Assembly: GCA_000697355.1 (NCBI GenBank)
Contig: JNEN01000902.1
Coordinates: forward strand, 62,001-126,000
DNA: 64,000 bases
From: Syncephalastrum monosporum B8922
Lineage: Eukaryota > Mucoromycota > Mucoromycetes > Mucorales > Syncephalastraceae
Direction: 5' to 3'
This document shows positions 5,096-64,000 of the stretch, in pieces. The notes beneath the pieces were generated by a model. That model ran no database searches. It worked only from the letters and a program-made list of their open reading frames with translations, and was not told the origin of the DNA. Both the position numbers and the translations under genes were made by a program. The stretch's first letter is position 1. The number at the start of each line of letters is the position of its first letter.

Positions 5096-11086
<5,991 letters not shown>

Positions 11087-11122
11087 ACTCTCCTTACTAT
11101 GCGCGCGCACTTTTTTCGAGGG

Positions 11123-11154
11123 TATGATCCATTTTTTTGCGATCATATCAGGTA
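11123..11154 (+). promoter_or_regulatory. Hairpin and 5' splice donor upstream of the TPP aptamer
   Basis: TATGATC (11123-11129) is perfectly complementary to GATCATA (11141-11147), enclosing a T-rich loop. A consensus donor CAG|GTACGT follows at 11149-11157. CAGGTA (11149-11154) is the exact reverse complement of TACCTG in the P5 3' strand of the aptamer (11271-11276). The element lies in the presumed THI4 3' UTR and could be masked or exposed by ligand binding. That function is inference from the plant THIC and Neurospora NMT1 mechanisms. Confidence 0.6.
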
Positions 11155-11198
11155 CGTGTTGATTGCTATCGCTTGCTGAACGTTTGCAAGATGCAGTC

Positions 11199-11290
11199 GG
11201 CACTAGGGGTGCTTGGTTGACTTTGTGTCGCCAGGCTGAGATTGTACCCTCAACTACTTGATCAGGATAATACCTGCGAAAGGAAGTGCC
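11199..11290 (+). ncRNA. TPP riboswitch aptamer (THI element) in the THI4 3' region
   Basis: All core TPP-aptamer parts are present in order. P1: GGCACT (11199-11204) with AGTGCC (11285-11290). P2: GGGT (11207-11210) with ACCC (11246-11249). P3: GCTTGG (11211-11216) with CCAGGC (11231-11236). The conserved CTGAGA is at 11236-11241. P4/P5 carries TGATCAGGATAATACCTGCG, with P5 CAGG (11263-11266) pairing CCTG (11273-11276), followed by GAAAGGAAG. It is on the same strand as THI4, 113 bp after its stop and 345 bp before IST3. IST3 is a splicing factor with no thiamine link, so control of THI4 from the 3' UTR is the simplest reading. Confidence 0.93.
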
Positions 11291-11634
11291 ATTGTATTTT
11301 TCTCTAAATAACAGATTCTTTTTTTCTGCGCGTCTCTAAACATAACACACGGAGGTTTCTGGGGCAGGAGAGTAGTGGTGATTGGGGGACTGGGATACTG
11401 GGATGGTATGGGCTTCAGAAGAAGGGGCCGTGAACCGAAGAAGATCTTGTAAAATAAACTTGAAACTTTTGACACATTTTCATTGTTATATATTGTGATG
11501 CTATCTTACGTTTAAGCATCTGGGAGCATTACAGCTGTCATGGCCTAATTTCCACAGCGTCAAAATTAGCGGGTCGCCACAGCAAAATTCCCCATTCATT
11601 TTCTTAACCGCATACCCAGTACACACGGAGCAAA

Positions 11635-12456
11635 ATGAAGTAAGGTCTTCCCAGGTAATTCAAATGAAACGAGTTCGTAACCATCGATCGCAGCCGTGTC
11701 CGAGAAGTCCAACGAATAAATGAGCGCGAACTGTCAGCAGGAGGCGAATACTCGGACACAGCATCCTGGCATTACCAGTACCGAGATACTTCGTGGATCT
11801 ACGTTGGCAACATGCCTTTCAATCTGACAGAAGGCGACATTATCTGCATCTTCTCACAGCAAGTATCGATATGGAATCCATGCAACGCTCTGCTCACTGC
11901 AGCTGTCATGTAGATACGGCGAGATCTTCAACATTGAACTGATCCGCGACAAGTACGACGGCAAATCAAAAGGCTTTGCATTCTTACAGTACGAAGATCA
12001 GCGCAGTGCAGTCCTGGCTGTCGACAACTTGAACGGAAGCGATGTAAATGTGACTTATTACTGCGTAGACAAACCGGTTGACGCGTCATATTTTAGATTT
12101 TGGGCCGAACGATACGTGTGGATCATTCATATGGACCCAAACCACAGCGAAAAAAGGTCGGTGATGAATGGATCGAGGAGCCCTATATCCCAAAGAACAA
12201 TTGCGCACCACCCACAATCCAACAAGGTAGTGCCATCCGTGCAAAAGCATTTTGGAAGAGTAACTCACACCTGTCAACAGACGTGCCCGAGGAAACATCA
12301 GAACCAGAAGACAGCCTGCCGCCCGACTTTGACCCCGAAGACCCTATGGCAGCCTACTTTGCCAGCAAGGCCAAGGACCGGAAACGAAAGAAGGAAAAGA
12401 AGGATAAAAAGGAAAAGAAACACAAGAAGCACAAGTCTGATAAACGATCTCCATGA
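11635..12456 (+). CDS. IST3: IST3/RBMX2-type RNA-binding splicing factor
   Basis: Homologue of yeast Ist3/Snu17 and human RBMX2, a subunit of the RES complex of the activated spliceosome. Five exons (11635-11639, 11694-11858, 11914-12043, 12097-12226, 12281-12456) give 201 aa. The first exon contributes only five bases. The N-terminus matches the family pattern (NRVREVQRINERE). One RRM spans about residues 33-112, with RNP2 IYVGNM, RNP1 KGFAFLQY, and family blocks FNLTEGDIICIFSQYGEI and GRTIRVDHSYGPKP. The C-terminus is Lys-rich. Intron 11859-11913 begins with GC (CA|GCAAGT); only this junction restores the Q-Y-G-E-I frame. Intron 12227-12280 is 54 nt, open and in frame, so retention would add 18 residues. 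Confidence 0.93.
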
Positions 12457-38875: not shown

Positions 38876-40189
38876 ATGCAACCTCAAGCAGCTGGCTTTG
38901 GCACCAACGCGATCCACGCAGGCACGGAGGCCGATACCGTCACCGGCGCCGTCATCCCTCCCATCTCGCTGTCGACGACCTTCAAGCAGAGTGCTGCGGG
39001 TGAGCACAAGGTAAATCAGATTTTCAGATCCAATTTTCCCACGCTGACTTATGCAAAAACATAATGGAACAGGGTTATGACTATTCGCGTTCAGGCAACC
39101 CCACCCGCGATGCCTTCGAGAAGGCTGTCGCAGCCCTGGAAGGTGCCCAGCATGGTGTCGCCTTTGCGTCCGGCTCGTCTGTGACCGCCTCTATCCTCTC
39201 CACCCTCAGCACCGGCTCCCACATCATCTCGGTCAATGATGTGTACGGTGGTACCTACCGCTACTTCACCAAGGTCGCCATCCACCACGGTGTCGAGGCT
39301 ACTTTTGTCAACCTCCATGATGCTTCCAAGATCAAGGAGGAGTTCAAGGAAAACACAAAGGTAAGTAGAGAGAGAGAGAGCGCGAGAGCGAGAAGGAGGG
39401 TGAATTTTTTGTTTTTCTATAACTGACAAAACAAAAAATTTGTTTTAGCTTGTCTGGGTCGAGACCCCCACGAACCCTACCCTTCGCCTCGTCGATATTG
39501 CCGCTGTGGCCGAGTACGCACACGCGCACGGCGCGCTCCTTGTCGTGGACAACACCTTCATGAGCCCGTACTTCCAGAACCCCCTCAGCCTCGGTGCGGA
39601 CGTTGTCGTGCACTCGGTGACCAAGTATATCAACGGTCACTCCGATGTTGTCATGGGCGTGGCTGTCACCAACAGTGACGCCATCCACGATAAGCTCTCC
39701 TTCATGCAAAACTCGCTTGGTGCTGTTCCTTCCGCTTTCGACTGCTACCTCGCCCGTCGTGGTTTGATGACCCTCGAGGTGCGCATGCAGCGCCACGAGC
39801 AGAACGCGCTCCAGGTCGCCGAGTTCCTTGAGTCCCACGCCAAGGTGGATGAAGTGATCTACCCCGGTCTGCCTTCCCACCCCCAGCACGACCTGGCCCG
39901 TCGCCAGCAAAAGGGCTTCGGTGGTATGCTCTCCTTCCGCATGCAGGGCACCCTTGAGAACGTCAACAAGATGCTCGGCAAGCTCGAGGTCATCACCCTC
40001 GCTGAGTCCCTTGGTGGCGTTGAGTCCCTCATTGAGGTGCCTGCTGTCATGACCCACGGCTCTGTCAGTGCCGAGGACCGTGCCACGCTGGGCATCACCG
40101 ACACCCTCGTCCGTGTCTCTGTCGGTATCGAGACTGCTCAGGATATCATCAACGACCTAGACCAGGCCCTGAAGCACGCTTACCTTTAA
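38876..40189 (+). CDS. CYS3: Cystathionine gamma-lyase
   Basis: PLP enzyme of the transsulfuration pathway, cleaving cystathionine to cysteine, 2-oxobutyrate and ammonia. Three exons (38876-39010, 39073-39360, 39449-40189) give 387 aa, the usual length. Hallmarks: GFGTNAIHAG, PPISLSTTFKQ, YDYSRSGNPTRDAFEKAVA, GVAFASGSSV, VNDVYGGTYRYF, ETPTNPTLRLVDI, VVDNTFMSPYFQNPL, the PLP lysine in HSVTKYINGHSDVVMG, SLGGVESLIEVPAVMTH, and RVSVGIETAQDIINDL. The gamma-lyase call rather than gamma-synthase or beta-lyase rests on overall resemblance to yeast Cys3 (ESLIEVPAVMTHGSV). The start context is CCACCATGC. Codon use is strongly biased to C-ending codons, as in highly expressed genes here. Confidence 0.93.
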
Positions 40190-40344: not shown

Positions 40345-42507
40345 CTATATATATATATGCACACTACCTTCAGTCAACACAGCCGGGTCAAATGCCTCCA
40401 GAGGGCGCGTGAATTCGGGCAAGTTGCACCAGCGGGACGCCGTCGCCAGGTCTTGCTCGGCCTCGGCCTCCTTGTTCTGGAGGGCCCATTCGGCGTGCTC
40501 TACCAGCAGGACACCGGCCAGGACACGGCCCATGGCAAAGGTCAAATCGCGTGCGCTGGCCTCGAGCGCGGTGCGGTCATTCGTTGTTGACAAAAAGACA
40601 CGAAGGTTGACGAGTGCCTGGCGGATGCGCGTGACGGCGAACTTGAGCTTGTCATTTGAGACATTGGCCACCTTGGCCAAGAGCGTCTATGCCGATGTAT
40701 CCACTTGAATATACACTCACTGGACATGGAGCTTATGTTCGTTACCTTCTCAAAGACATCGAATGCCTTGTTCTTGGTCTGTTTAAAGACACGCAGGACG
40801 TCCATCGCCAGTACATTCGTCGTGCCTTCCCATATCGTGTTGACAAGTGAGTCACGGAGATGTCGGCCCAAGCCTATTTCTTCCATGTATCCCTAGATGC
40901 ATAATTAGGTTAGATATGATGAAAAACATAGCGCGGAAGTCGTCCTGTACCTGACCGCCCAAGGCCTCCATGGCCTCACTGATGGTGCTAACACCCGTCT
41001 TGCACACGTACGCCTTGGCTATCGGAGTCAAGAGACGGAGCATAGCGATATCAGCCGTCTTCTCGGGACCGTCGGGCAAGCACTCCGTGCGGCCCAGCAG
41101 CTGGGCAGCATAGAACGCGATTTGGGAGTTCGCGCGGAACATGAGCTCCAGTTGTGCCAAGGTCTTGACATGCAGCGGCAATTTGTCGAGACGCTGGCCG
41201 AACGCATCACGCTTGACGGCAAAATCCTTGGCAACGGCGAGCGCACGTCGCTGAGCGCTGACGACACCCATGGCGGCGTACACGCGCGTGATATTCAGGA
41301 TCGCGGCAATGGTAGGCACACCGCGACCGAGCTTGCCCACGAGCTGGGCCTTCATGCCCGTCAGTTCAAGCTCGGCAGTAGGCAAGCCCTTGGTACCAAA
41401 CTTATTCTTTAGGCGGTGCACGCGAACGCCATTCAGGTTACCGTCGGGTTGGTGCATCTCCGCAATGAAGAGCGACAGGCCTTTGCTGCCCTCGGTCACA
41501 GAGTTGGACTTGGGGTCGACCGCACGGGCGAGAAGCATGGTCATGTTGGCTGTCGTGGCAGAAGAGAACCACTTGAAACCGTGGATGGACCACGAGCCGT
41601 CGGCTTCGGGGTAGGCCAGCGTCTCGGATCGACCGACGTCACTGCCACCGGGGCGCTCGGTCATCCACTGACCACTGGTCCAGAACTTGCTTGGGTCGCG
41701 GCTCAGCAGGTGAGGCAGGTACTTCTCTCTCATGGCATCCGTGCCAGACACTTCCAGAGCGCGGGCTGCGCCATCTATACTCGAGCTATTAATAAATAAC
41801 GTGCGGGAGAGAGACAGCCCAGCGGGTTAAGTACCTGTCATGGAGATGGGGCAGGAATGGACGGCAGTGGACGGGCTATACAAGTACTGCTTGGCAAACT
41901 GATAGATACGCGAGTGTTCCTGGATCGGGCGCTCGTAGGCAATAGCAACTAGACTGTTCAGAAGGTTAAATATTTTGACGGCGCGTGTCAGTGATTTGCC
42001 GAGGGTTTACCCTTCTTCCGCTGCAACGTCGTTAAGCTGTTCCCAGCCTTGTGCGACCGTGATCTCGTCCACACGTCTATACCCAGAACTTATGAGCGAG
42101 TTGTCCTATTCTAATTGCGCGTCTTCGTGTTCTCACCGGCACCAAGCATCGTATTGTCGCAGGCGAGGATAGTGGTTGGGGTCCTCGACATTGTCGCCCA
42201 TGACTTGAATGTCTGTCATGGAGAAGATGAGTTGGCTTTCTACAATTAAAGAAAAATAGTCGCAATCGTACCACCGACAACTCGATCGCCAAACCGCACG
42301 AGATCAGGCTCAATCTTTTGGTGAACCTCCGCGGGCAAGAGGCGTTTCAAAATGCTGCGAAAGACGACGTCGTTCGTGTATTGGTTACCCAATTCAGGTG
42401 GGGCCTACCATTCGAGTAAGAAAAGGGTTGTTGTTCGCGTCTAGAGTAATACGCTTTACTTGGCGAAATCCAGTGTCAGAAGAGGCTTTGGGAGGTACAG
42501 GAGCCAT
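40345..42507 (-). CDS. AidB-like acyl-CoA dehydrogenase
   Basis: FAD-dependent acyl-CoA dehydrogenase of the AidB-like branch; the substrate is not known. A multi-exon minus-strand gene with first exon 42507-42460 and second from 42404. Visible blocks: APPELGNQYTNDVVFRSIL, IQVMGDNVEDPNHYPR, AVHSCPISMTDGAARAL, GQWMTERPGGSDVGRSET (typical of AidB/ACAD), WSIHGFKWFSSATTANM, FGTKGLPTAELEL, ARALAVAKDFAVKRDAFGQ-like QRRALAVAKDFAVKR, MEALGGQGYMEEIGLGRHLRD, and NTIWEGTTNVLAMDVLRV. A C-terminal helical extension ends in VHIYI with TAG at 40345-40347. No peroxisomal PTS1 at the C-terminus and no clear mitochondrial presequence. Intron count is at least five; some internal junctions were not fully checked. 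Confidence 0.9.
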
Positions 42508-53517: not shown

Positions 53518-55537
53518 TTATAAACCCGACAGCGCCTCTTTGAGTTGTAGCAGAGCCGAGCGTTCTCTGTATTCCTGCCGGACTGGGCAATCTCGAAAAG
53601 CGCAAGCGAGCGCTTCAAGCTGATCTGTGAGGGCCTGACCTTCGCGGCCAACATGGGCGGGGTTCAGAAGCAGATCAAATAAGGGTGCCCATAGATCCTT
53701 TTGCCAGTAGCGCCGCAGCGGCTGCTGTAATACGATCCTTTTATTGCGTGTTCTGATCTGCAACGCCTTGCCGAAAAGGATCCAGTGAGCCATGTCCGCG
53801 AGGCCCCAGTAGTCCACCCACCACGGTGGAAAGCTCGCGTGGTTCTGGACAGGAGGCATATCCGTTTTCTGGGGCGACCAGGCCGCCTGGAGCCGGATCG
53901 GGCTTGGCAAGAGTGAGAGATCGACGGATCGGCCGAAATCCACGAGCGTCAGCCAGCGCTGGCCAACATCGAGGTCGTTCAGGGACAGGACGACGTTGTC
54001 GAGCTTGAGGTCGCCGTGAATGATCTGCGCGCGATGCAGCGTCACGACAGCCTGCACAAGTCGCTCCACCAGAGCGAGCGCGAGCGGCTCGGGCATGGCC
54101 AAGCTGACCAGGGTCGGCATGCGCCGATTGAGCTGACGCTGCGCGTTCAGCGCGTCCAGGAGTGTGCCATGGCGGGCGTAGCCCACGAGGAGAAACCCCG
54201 TGTCTTGGAAGAGATGCAGGCCTAGCGCGGGCTGGATCGCCTCGGCAGCGCCACGGCGCGCGGCCTGCACCATGATGTAAAACTCCCAGCTCACGGCCTG
54301 CGTGCTCTGCACCACCTTGCACGCCATGTCACCCTCCACCAGGTACACCTTTCCCATGGCCCCTTGACCCAGCTTGCGCACTGGAGTGGCGCCGAAAGAG
54401 AGCCGCGCCTTGCGCTCGAGTCGCAGCCGATCGGTCAGGCCAGAGCGCGGACGGTGGTCGATGCAGGCTGGATCGTCCTCGATGTGCGTCAGCGCGTCGC
54501 GGATGATGCATGTCTCGAGTGGTATCAAATGGTGTGATCGGCTGAGGTGTGTGCTGCTTCTTTTTGTGTTTTGAGTTGGGTCAGGGGGCGCAGGTGTACC
54601 GTCGGACAAGAAGGCGACCAGGTGAGCGTTGGTCGCCTGACTTGCTCCTGCTGGCGAAGAGTGGCCTGTGCGTTGTTTTTCCTTGTGGGCGCGTGTAACG
54701 TCCAGCGACCAAATACGGCGTTTTTGATAAGAAGCGGCGGCGCCTGGTTTTTTCTTCAGGATGCACCGGTGCTGCCACTGGTATCGCACTTCCTCGATCG
54801 ACATTTCCTGGCCCGACTCACGGTAGCATTCGCGAAGCACCGCCGCGCTACAGGCACGTCGCAGGCTTGCTTCCGTCCAGTCAAAGAGGACAAAGAGAGC
54901 TCGCCACTGGGCTTGGCCTACGGAAACGTGTCTGGCAGGGGTGGCGGCGACGAATATACGAGCAGCGGCTGGACCACTGCCGTCTGTGCGTCATCAACGC
55001 TCGTCATGGTTCCCGTGGACATGTAGCGGTGGTGGTGGTTCTGCTGATGTGGCAAATGATGGTGATCACTGACGTTTATCTGAGTATCAACTGATTGGAT
55101 CAAACTTTCGAGCCTTGCCAGCGGCTGGGCGTTGCGGTCGATTCCCCGACGCAGCAAGCGCTTGGCGTCCGACCACCTAGATAACGACATAATAAAAGAA
55201 AGATAAGGCAATGAGCAATTCTTGGAGTATCTGTCGACCTGTGTGCTTCCATGAGGTACTCGGCATAGTATTCGTAAAAGGCAGCAACATACACACCGAT
55301 CGCCAAGTCCTCCATCCTTTGATATATCGCCTCAGGTTCCCTGATAAATGAAGCATATGCGAGGCAACAGCGCACGAAACGCAGGTCATTCTGATAACGC
55401 TTGTCATGCTCGAATCGGGTCATCACCGCCTGGAGTGATTCGAGAAGGTGATAGTTGTCCTCCTCTTTCTTCAGTTGACGAATGTGCTGCTCGATATCCT
55501 GCAGAGGATCCTCGACTACTTCATCAAGCCACGACAT
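53518..55537 (-). CDS. BUB1: BUB1 spindle-checkpoint kinase
   Basis: Mitotic checkpoint kinase at kinetochores. Three exons (55537-55239, 55176-54922, 54847-53518) give 627 aa, short for BUB1 (yeast is about 1000). N-terminal Mad3/BUB1 TPR region (residues about 1-125): DPLQDIEQHIRQLKK, HDKRYQNDLRFVRCCLAY, AAFYEYYAEYLMEAHRW, KRLLRRGIDRNAQPLARL. A GLEBS-like Bub3-binding motif follows at about 199-207 (MSIEEVRYQ). The kinase domain starts near 344: loop LGQGAMGKVYLV, Lys about 362 in ACKVV, HGDLKLDN at 463, DFG at 488. All core catalytic residues are present, so it should be active. I see no KEN box in the N-terminus, which argues for BUB1 rather than a MAD3/BUBR1 function. Confidence 0.92.
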
Positions 55538-62365: not shown

Positions 62366-62571
62366 GCAAAAATGTGGGATGATAACAAACGTAAAAGGAT
62401 GAAAATGAAAGGCGGAAAAAGACGCAGGGATTAGAAGAGGAAGAGAGCGCTTGAAAGTCAGCTCAGCTCATCATTTCTTTTTTATAGTTTTCTTTTGGGT
62501 TACTTTGCACAACTGATGTTTCTACTATGTTAAAGACGGGGGAAAGAAATGAAGGTGTCGAAATATGTTTT

Positions 62572-63921
62572 TTACAGGAACGACTTGACGTGGTTATCAC
62601 AGACCTCACGGAGCTTGGTCTCGAGCTCCTTGGAGAGGACACCCTTGGAGCGGATCTCCTCGAGAAGGGGCTGCTGCTGGGTCTGGAGGTGACCGATGAA
62701 GTCCTTCTCCCAGTCGACGACCTTGTTGACGGGGAGCTTGTCAAGGAAACCGTTGACACCAGCAAACATGATGGGGACCTGAACGGGGATGGACAGGGGC
62801 GAGTACTGGGGCTGCTTGAGGAGCTCAGTCAGACGGGCACCACGGTTGAGCAAGAACTGGGTCGAGGCATCCAGGTCGGAACCGAACTGGGCGAAGGCGG
62901 CAACCTCACGGTACTGGGCCAAGAAGAGCTTGAGCGAACCGGCGACCTGCTTCATGGCCTTGGTCTGGGCGGCGGAACCGACACGCGAGACGGAGAGACC
63001 GACGTTAATAGCGGGACGGACACCCTTGAAGAACAGCTCAGCTTCCAAGAAGATCTGACCGTCAGTGATGGAAATGACGTTGGTGGGAATGTAAGCGGAC
63101 ACATCACCACCCTGGGTCTCAATGATGGGCAGGGCGGTCATCGAACCGTAGCCAAAGTCCTTGTTCATCTTGGCGGCACGCTCGAGAAGACGCGAGTGAA
63201 GGTAGAAGACATCACCGGGGTAGGCCTCACGACCGGGGGGACGACGCAGCAAAAGCGACATCTGACGGTAGGCGACGGCCTGCTTGGACAGATCGTCGTA
63301 GATGATCAGGGAGTGGCGGCCGTTGTCACGGAACCACTCACCAAAGGCAGCACCGGAGAAGGGAGCGAGGTACTGGAGGGGAGCGGCCTCGGAGGCGGTG
63401 GCGGCGACGACGGTGGTGTACTTCATGGCGTCGTTCTCCTCGAGGGTGCCGACGAGCTGGGCAACGGTGGAGCGCTTCTGACCGACGGCGACGTAGATAC
63501 AGTAGAGCTTCTTGGACTCGTCGGAGCCGTTGTTCCAGTTCTTCTGGTTGAGGATGGTGTCGAGAGCGACGGCGGTCTTACCGGTCTGACGATCACCAAT
63601 GATCAACTCACGCTGACCACGGCCGATGGGGACCATGGAGTCGACGGACTTGATACCAGTCTGCATGGGCTCGTTGACGGAGTGACGGGGCAAGATACCG
63701 GGGGCCTTGACCTGGACACGCGAGCGGCCGACGGTCTCGAGGGGACCTTTGCCGTCGATGGGGTTACCCAGGGCATCGACCACACGGCCGAGGATGCCAG
63801 GGCCGACGGGCACGTCGACAATGGCACCGGTACGCTTGACGGTGTCGCCTTCCTTGATCAGACGATCGTTACCGAAAACGACAATACCGACGTTGTCGGC
63901 TTCCAAGTTGAGGGCCATACC
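62572..63921 (-). CDS. ATP1: ATP synthase subunit alpha, mitochondrial (partial, 5' end outside window)
   Basis: Non-catalytic alpha subunit of F1. One long exon from an acceptor at 63923-63922 to TAA at 62572, about 450 codons; the N-terminal presequence and first exons lie beyond 64000. Hallmarks: [39 protein letters not shown], the P-loop [100 protein letters not shown] (in parts), [18 protein letters not shown]. Codon choice is extremely biased to C- and G-ending codons, which produces a long meaningless open frame on the opposite strand. Confidence 0.97.
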
Positions 63922-64000
63922 CTGTCAAACAACGTGACATATTAATATGGCTGTGGATATACAAAAAGACTGCCGCGACAACACACGTGTGTAGAGGTGT
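63922..64000 (-). other. 3' part of an ATP1 intron
   Basis: The sequence upstream of the exon ends in TTTGACAG at the acceptor, with an in-frame exon following. The donor lies outside the window. Confidence 0.8.

Follow-up and report, generated by a model that had tools for sequence, protein, structure and literature searches.

Can a fungal thiamine gene be controlled by a TPP riboswitch that lies behind its coding sequence? The question is raised by the THI4 gene of the analysed window (the whole 64-kb stretch of DNA, to which positions refer unless another locus is named), where the first-pass annotation had noticed a TPP aptamer 113 bp past the stop codon, on the same strand, and had proposed thiamine control of THI4 by 3'-end processing. 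In eukaryotes, convincing demonstrations of riboswitches are confined to the TPP class, according to a passage of PMC12335538, and control by a TPP riboswitch from the 3' UTR is known experimentally from plants, as stated in part of PMC10226581.

The THI4 aptamer and its sister elements

In an Rfam scan of the window, RF00059 (TPP) was the sole family at gathering score; the match spans the complete model (model positions 1-105) at 64.7 bits against a cut-off of 54.3 (E = 2e-10), and the RF00059 check that the first-pass annotation had named in advance thus returned a match above the gathering cut-off. Rechecking of the letters placed CTGAGA at 11236-11241 and TGATCAGGATAATACCTGCG at 11259-11278, with the GCG at 11276-11278, and P1 is formed by 11200-11204 paired with 11285-11289 (Table 1). 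Coordinates, strand and motifs had been read correctly, and the distance of 113 nt from the THI4 stop codon (TAA, 11084-11086) is right for the first P1 pair of the model, the match itself starting after 108 nt.

Table 1. Features of the THI4 locus, in window coordinates, and the two further aptamer loci of the genome. A slash in a sequence marks the splice junction.
Feature	Position	Strand	Details
THI4 (thiamine thiazole synthase)	9962-11086	+	four exons, 317 aa; PF01946 361.8 bits, E 1.6e-108
THI4 coding exons	9962-10231, 10291-10768, 10825-10909, 10966-11086	+	gene model
Candidate anti-aptamer element, complement of P5/P4 3' strand 11266-11286	11110-11130	+	17 bp, -16.8 kcal/mol
Weak donor AGG/GTATGA under the candidate anti-aptamer element	GT at 11122, +36	+	donor score 5.5
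Candidate 3'-UTR donor CAG/GTACGT	11149-11157, GT at 11152	+	66 nt past THI4 stop; score 6.5
TPP aptamer RF00059, P1-P5	11195-11301	+	64.7 bits
AG in P2 (CTAG/GGG)	11205-11206	+	acceptor score 2.8; 55-nt intron with donor at 11152
AATAAA, first canonical poly(A) signal past THI4 stop (+367)	11453-11458	+	between aptamer and next gene
IST3-like RRM gene, next on same strand	11635-12456	+	PF00076 71.1 bits on joined exons; model partly by eye
NMT1/THI5 locus	L002/L004	- (L004)	342 aa, PF09084 234 bits; aptamer 61.9 bits, 171 nt past stop
Sugar-type MFS transporter locus	L003/L005	-	494 aa, PF00083 350.8 bits; aptamer 55.9 bits, 41 nt past stop

A PF01946 search of the genome found one THI4 locus (three exon matches) together with three weak partial matches elsewhere (23.7-27.9 bits). 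In the protein search, the top score went to one crustacean-labelled entry at 65% identity, and the next six matches (79-83% identity) come from Apophysomyces, Radiomyces, Rhizomucor, Halteromyces, Gongronella and Cunninghamella, which we take to be genera of the Mucorales; on this basis the genome is regarded as Mucorales-like. The next gene had been called the splicing factor IST3, a name with which its RRM match is in keeping; the gene is in frame given a GC-AG intron (donor GCAAGT) inside the RRM, at 11859-11913, and joining the exons by eye across this intron yields a full RRM_1 match.

The genome (27.5 Mb, 198 contigs) was searched by scoring RF00059 on 49 of 879 first-look candidates, a procedure that unusual aptamers, for example those with a very long P3, may escape. 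Three matches exceed the cut-off: THI4 (64.7 bits), NMT1/THI5 (61.9) and a sugar-type transporter (55.9). All three lie past a stop codon on the coding strand, at 108, 171 and 41 nt, respectively, and this genomic placement is directly observed. A fourth match (25.1 bits, E 0.116), the only extra one up to E 10, lies antisense within a 960-aa open frame and was put down to chance.

The genome family search found one NMT1 locus (two exon matches). Beyond the NMT1 aptamer, the next identifiable gene is the convergent RPL30 (PF01248), whose end is 527 nt away, and beyond the transporter aptamer it is a bHLH gene (PF00010), likewise convergent, with its end at 1086 nt. Same-strand ATG frames in these gaps reach at most 47 aa (NMT1) and 80 aa (transporter), so that neither gap gives any sign of a downstream same-strand gene able to own the aptamer, a very short one being possible; a substantial tandem neighbour is found at the THI4 locus alone. 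By parsimony, each of the three aptamers would be part of the 3' UTR of the gene preceding it, and at THI4 this is most simply assumed because an AATAAA lies between the aptamer and the IST3-like gene.

With regard to known classes, all three elements lie past the stop and hence outside the fungal type I arrangement, in which the aptamer sits in a 5'-UTR intron; THI4 and NMT1 also fall outside type III, which is defined by an intron inside the coding sequence, and the transporter donor, situated at the stop codon, could open such an intron. By genome position alone, all three resemble the plant THIC type in that a thiamine gene carries the aptamer in its 3' UTR. The pattern TGATCAGGATAATACCTGCG occurs in 45 stretches of genome contigs, all bacteria by title, which makes the string not specific to fungi, and these loci were set aside; viral contigs yielded no P4/P5-pattern match and no THI4 relative.

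Across the alignment of the three aptamers, CTGAGAT, GATCAGGATAAT and CCTGCG are identical in all sequences, as are the CUGAGA pyrimidine pocket and the GCG pyrophosphate pocket. Among the 23 model pairs, standard pairing is seen in all three sequences at 16, in two at 5 and in one at 2, and changes on both sides affect three P1, one P3 and three P4 pairs. Selection on a functional TPP fold would predict such both-sided stem changes alongside invariant ligand motifs, three sequences being few for this purpose. The THI4 3'-UTR element is thus regarded as a genuine riboswitch aptamer, which by analogy with plant and fungal precedents would bind TPP.

Splice-site candidates and poly(A) signals

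Between the stop codon and the aptamer, each of the three loci carries a GTANGT: CAG/GTACGT at +66 in THI4, AAG/GTATGT at +17 in NMT1 and AAA/GTAAGT at -3 in the transporter. The pattern, which was picked after looking, recurs in 4.2% (THI4), 7.8% (NMT1) and 4.9% (transporter) of dinucleotide shuffles. Donors were scored with a matrix built from 11 coding introns of the same genome, read from gene models and themselves scoring 6.5-10.3; these introns were used instead of those from an automatic coding-intron search of the own-genome loci, which proved too strict (3 clusters). The NMT1 donor scores 11.3, with equally good sites occurring at 0.03 per kb and strand; the transporter donor scores 10.3 (0.11 per kb and strand) and is identical in sequence to the donor of one of this gene's coding introns, which is itself in the matrix. 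Both THI4 donors are ordinary, at 6.5 (1.59 per kb and strand) and 5.5 (2.68 per kb). As judged by these scores, the putative 3'-UTR donors appear strong in NMT1 and the transporter and ordinary in THI4.

In the transporter, the stop codon (AAG TAA GT; L005 4326-4328, minus strand, which equals L003 1658-1660, minus strand) doubles as the strong donor. This stop is probably the native end of the protein because 16 of the 43 best protein matches, one of which is the transporter itself, share its C-terminal GAK/GAR. The ending common to these relatives may in turn partly reflect the donor. A separate observation concerns NMT1 (minus strand of L004): two predicted structures of its 3' UTR both contain a local hairpin, ACAAAAGG...CCUUUUGU, with the donor at the edge of the loop, and this hairpin could modulate the donor without TPP.

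On the acceptor side, the AG in P2 reads CTAG/GGG in THI4 and NMT1 and CAAG/GGG in the transporter. According to a passage of PMC9544697, TPP switches of plants and green algae have their alternative acceptor at this spot; aGGGG is also part of the RF00059 consensus. The P2 sites score 2.8 (THI4), 2.9 (NMT1) and 0.9 (transporter), all 11 coding acceptors being higher (3.7-7.9), and introns ending there would measure 55, 167 and 57 nt, respectively, the coding introns being 53-71 nt long in ten cases and 138 nt in one. Under a scoring confined to the site itself, with branch points and pyrimidine tracts outside it, no acceptor upstream of P1 (GATGCAG, TTGAACAG, ATCAAAAG), in P2 or downstream rose over background. 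A long T-rich tract precedes the NMT1 site TTGAACAG.

Poly(A) signals are arranged differently at the three loci. The AATAAA follows the aptamer in THI4, by 152 nt, and in NMT1 (+284), where it starts 13 nt past the last base of the model match; in the transporter it precedes the aptamer, lying 24 nt past the stop, with the aptamer spanning +42 to +157. The regulated intron would contain the poly(A) signal in the transporter, and in THI4 and NMT1 only with a distant acceptor.

Anti-aptamer pairing and predicted folds

Upstream of the THI4 aptamer, the 17-bp complement to the P5/P4 strand is equalled by 17 of 1116 equally long segments of the own genome (1.5%) and, with a 16-nt target strand, by 2.0% of 300 shuffles. 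A P4/P5 complement is absent in NMT1 (58% of segments as good) and in the transporter (70%), and among 18 strand tests two fell at or below 3%, namely THI4 P5/P4 and NMT1 P1. The THI4 pairing has an average probability of 0.41-0.42 across five folding contexts; in folds that include 60 nt of coding sequence, the minimum-energy structure has part of 11110-11130 paired to the coding region.

With a forced aptamer fold as the stand-in for TPP, the unpaired probability of the THI4 donor at +36 goes from 0.20-0.21 to 0.12-0.19. The donor at +66 goes from 0.20-0.21 to 0.18-0.52 across the five contexts, rising in four of them, and drops on forcing in two further contexts (0.36 to 0.18 and 0.21 to 0.14). 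In NMT1 the donor is unpaired at 0.51-0.54 and unchanged by forcing, and in the transporter it is accessible in both states (0.67-0.89 free, 0.57-0.86 forced). The gap in ensemble free energy to the forced aptamer amounts, depending on context, to 4.0-10.7 kcal/mol for THI4, 6.3-7.8 kcal/mol for NMT1 and 1.4-3.2 kcal/mol for the transporter. The P2 AG becomes more paired when the aptamer is forced, largely by construction, and this is hence no evidence. Comparison of free and forced folds across the three loci thus revealed no common switch and no consistent release of the donor, and these predictions do not favour a simple release-of-donor model.

Proposed control, rival readings and known systems

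The reading that we prefer, with a probability of roughly 0.55, is that THI4 carries a genuine 3'-UTR TPP aptamer, one of three located past a stop codon, and that TPP-dependent splicing or other processing of the 3' UTR destabilises the message. With little TPP, the 3'-UTR donor would be hidden or unused, and a stable message would end at the normal poly(A) site; with abundant TPP, the aptamer would fold, splicing or processing of the 3' UTR would change, and the message would be destabilised. Splicing from the transporter donor would cost the message its stop codon and, given any acceptor past +29, its AATAAA too; this would follow the plant logic of removing a nearby poly(A) site with a stop-codon twist added. 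Transcription of gene and aptamer as a single mRNA, binding of TPP, the splicing itself and this direction of control are presumed from the examples of plant THIC and fungal NMT1; likewise, that high TPP would lower expression is extrapolated from plant THIC (PMC10226581) and fungal precedents (PMC5882874).

Of the two parts of the original proposal, the THI4 3'-UTR aptamer has held up, given the RF00059 match, the AATAAA ahead of the next gene and the equivalent placement at NMT1 and the transporter. Thiamine control of THI4 through 3'-end processing has fared less well, in view of ordinary donors, acceptors at background and a forced aptamer without clear donor release. The location of all detected switches behind genes nevertheless suggests thiamine control of message-end processing. 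It is conceivable, if doubtful, that Mucorales run their whole TPP regulon from 3' UTRs, in convergence with plants, and that at the transporter the ligand sets the stop codon, the poly(A) signal and the fate of the message together.

The main rival, which we regard as rather unlikely, dispenses with splicing: the aptamers would act directly on cleavage and polyadenylation, the TPP fold hiding or exposing the cleavage region and the read-through product being unstable. This explanation fits the transporter best, where the signal at +24 would lead one to expect cleavage inside the aptamer, and it gains from the nearness of the NMT1 AATAAA to the model match and from acceptors that are unconvincing at all three loci. 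However, the first AATAAA of THI4 is far from the aptamer, the strong donors of NMT1 and the transporter are left unexplained, and alternative polyadenylation, the first hypothesis for the diatom THIC aptamer, was not borne out according to a passage of PMC9544697.

Less probable still is that the aptamers are retained but inactive, or are TPP-binding RNAs that affect mRNA stability or antisense pairing with the convergent gene, in either case exerting no control over the processing of their own genes. A precedent is offered by the diatom THIC 3'-UTR aptamers, described in part of PMC9544697 as well conserved and unresponsive to thiamine, and an expression platform common to the three loci was not found. 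Against this, P1 and P4 show both-sided changes alongside ligand-contacting motifs that do not vary, and the fungal TPP switches reported so far have these same target classes, namely THI4, NMT1 and a transporter. Finally, it is highly improbable that the window aptamer is the leader of IST3, whose ATG (11635) lies on the same strand 333 nt past the end of the model match, because the NMT1 and transporter aptamers sit behind their genes facing convergent neighbours with only short same-strand frames between, and because an AATAAA intervenes at 11453 and we know of no thiamine link for IST3.

TPP-dependent processing of the 3' UTR has its counterpart in plant THIC, whose 3'-UTR riboswitch was reportedly described by Wachter and by Bocobza in 2007. 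In the partial accounts of the plant system drawn on here, the likenesses are an aptamer past the stop of a thiamine biosynthesis gene, a donor-like site upstream and an AG in P2, to which the transporter adds an AATAAA beside the donor-like site. In contrast to the plant case, the present host is a fungus, the aptamers accompany THI4, NMT1 and a sugar-type transporter instead of THIC, splicing is putative, complementarity of the donor to P4/P5 is confined to THI4, and the transporter donor overlaps the stop codon.

Among fungi, TPP switches are classed as 5'-UTR and internal-intron types in the consulted parts of PMC5882874. The type I switches described there, such as that of N. crassa NMT1, share the aptamer family and the targets THI4 and NMT1, but reside in 5'-UTR introns and act through uORFs, whereas all three present elements lie behind the coding sequence (PMC5882874). 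The same source lists a TPP element of Mucor NMT1, mentions 3'-UTR locations in general in its conclusions and reports 3'-UTR TPP elements beside eIF5B copies in Postia placenta; the latter are likewise fungal 3'-UTR elements, although they accompany two duplicated copies of a gene without known thiamine function (PMC5882874). For the Mucoromycota, TPPsw-THI4, -NMT1 and -SUGAR have been reported, which match the present elements in fungal group and in all three target classes (PMC11683625). Passages of that survey (PMC11683625) give type I as the predominant mode overall and place the SUGAR elements in the 5' UTR, consistently in one section and mostly in another, as mainly type I and some type III; in contrast, the elements of the transporter and of the two biosynthetic genes are all located past the stop here. 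A passage of the Lichtheimia genome paper attributes a TPP riboswitch to all basal fungi, with no placement given in that passage (PMC4133162). Diatom and prasinophyte TPP elements are likewise found in 3' UTRs of thiamine-related genes, according to parts of PMC9544697 and PMC4260697, but they are algal, and those of diatoms have no AG in P2. Among the titles and abstracts of the best literature matches, no report of 3'-UTR TPP switches on fungal thiamine genes was found, a weak negative given that the spelling "3 UTR" probably missed the prime sign, and priority is uncertain.

If all the TPP switches detected in a fungus lie behind their genes, the 3'-UTR architecture would be no plant peculiarity, and an expression platform would be able to move across a gene with the aptamer and its targets unchanged. 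Furthermore, the 5'-UTR assignment given to Mucoromycota sugar transporters in the 2024 survey would be called into question, at least for the present genome, and three native loci in one organism would provide a test bed for ligand control of 3'-end processing.

Elsewhere in the window, an ATP synthase alpha/beta-family gene (PF00006) occupies 62572-63924 on the minus strand, opposite a 485-aa stop-free frame (62488-63945, plus strand) that is probably a codon-usage artefact. A Cys/Met PLP-enzyme gene (39449-40189, plus strand) stands tail to tail with an acyl-CoA dehydrogenase-like gene (40852-41826, minus strand), and a 490-aa frame at 53518-54990 (minus strand) has a moderate protein-kinase domain match (PF00069, 41.1 bits).
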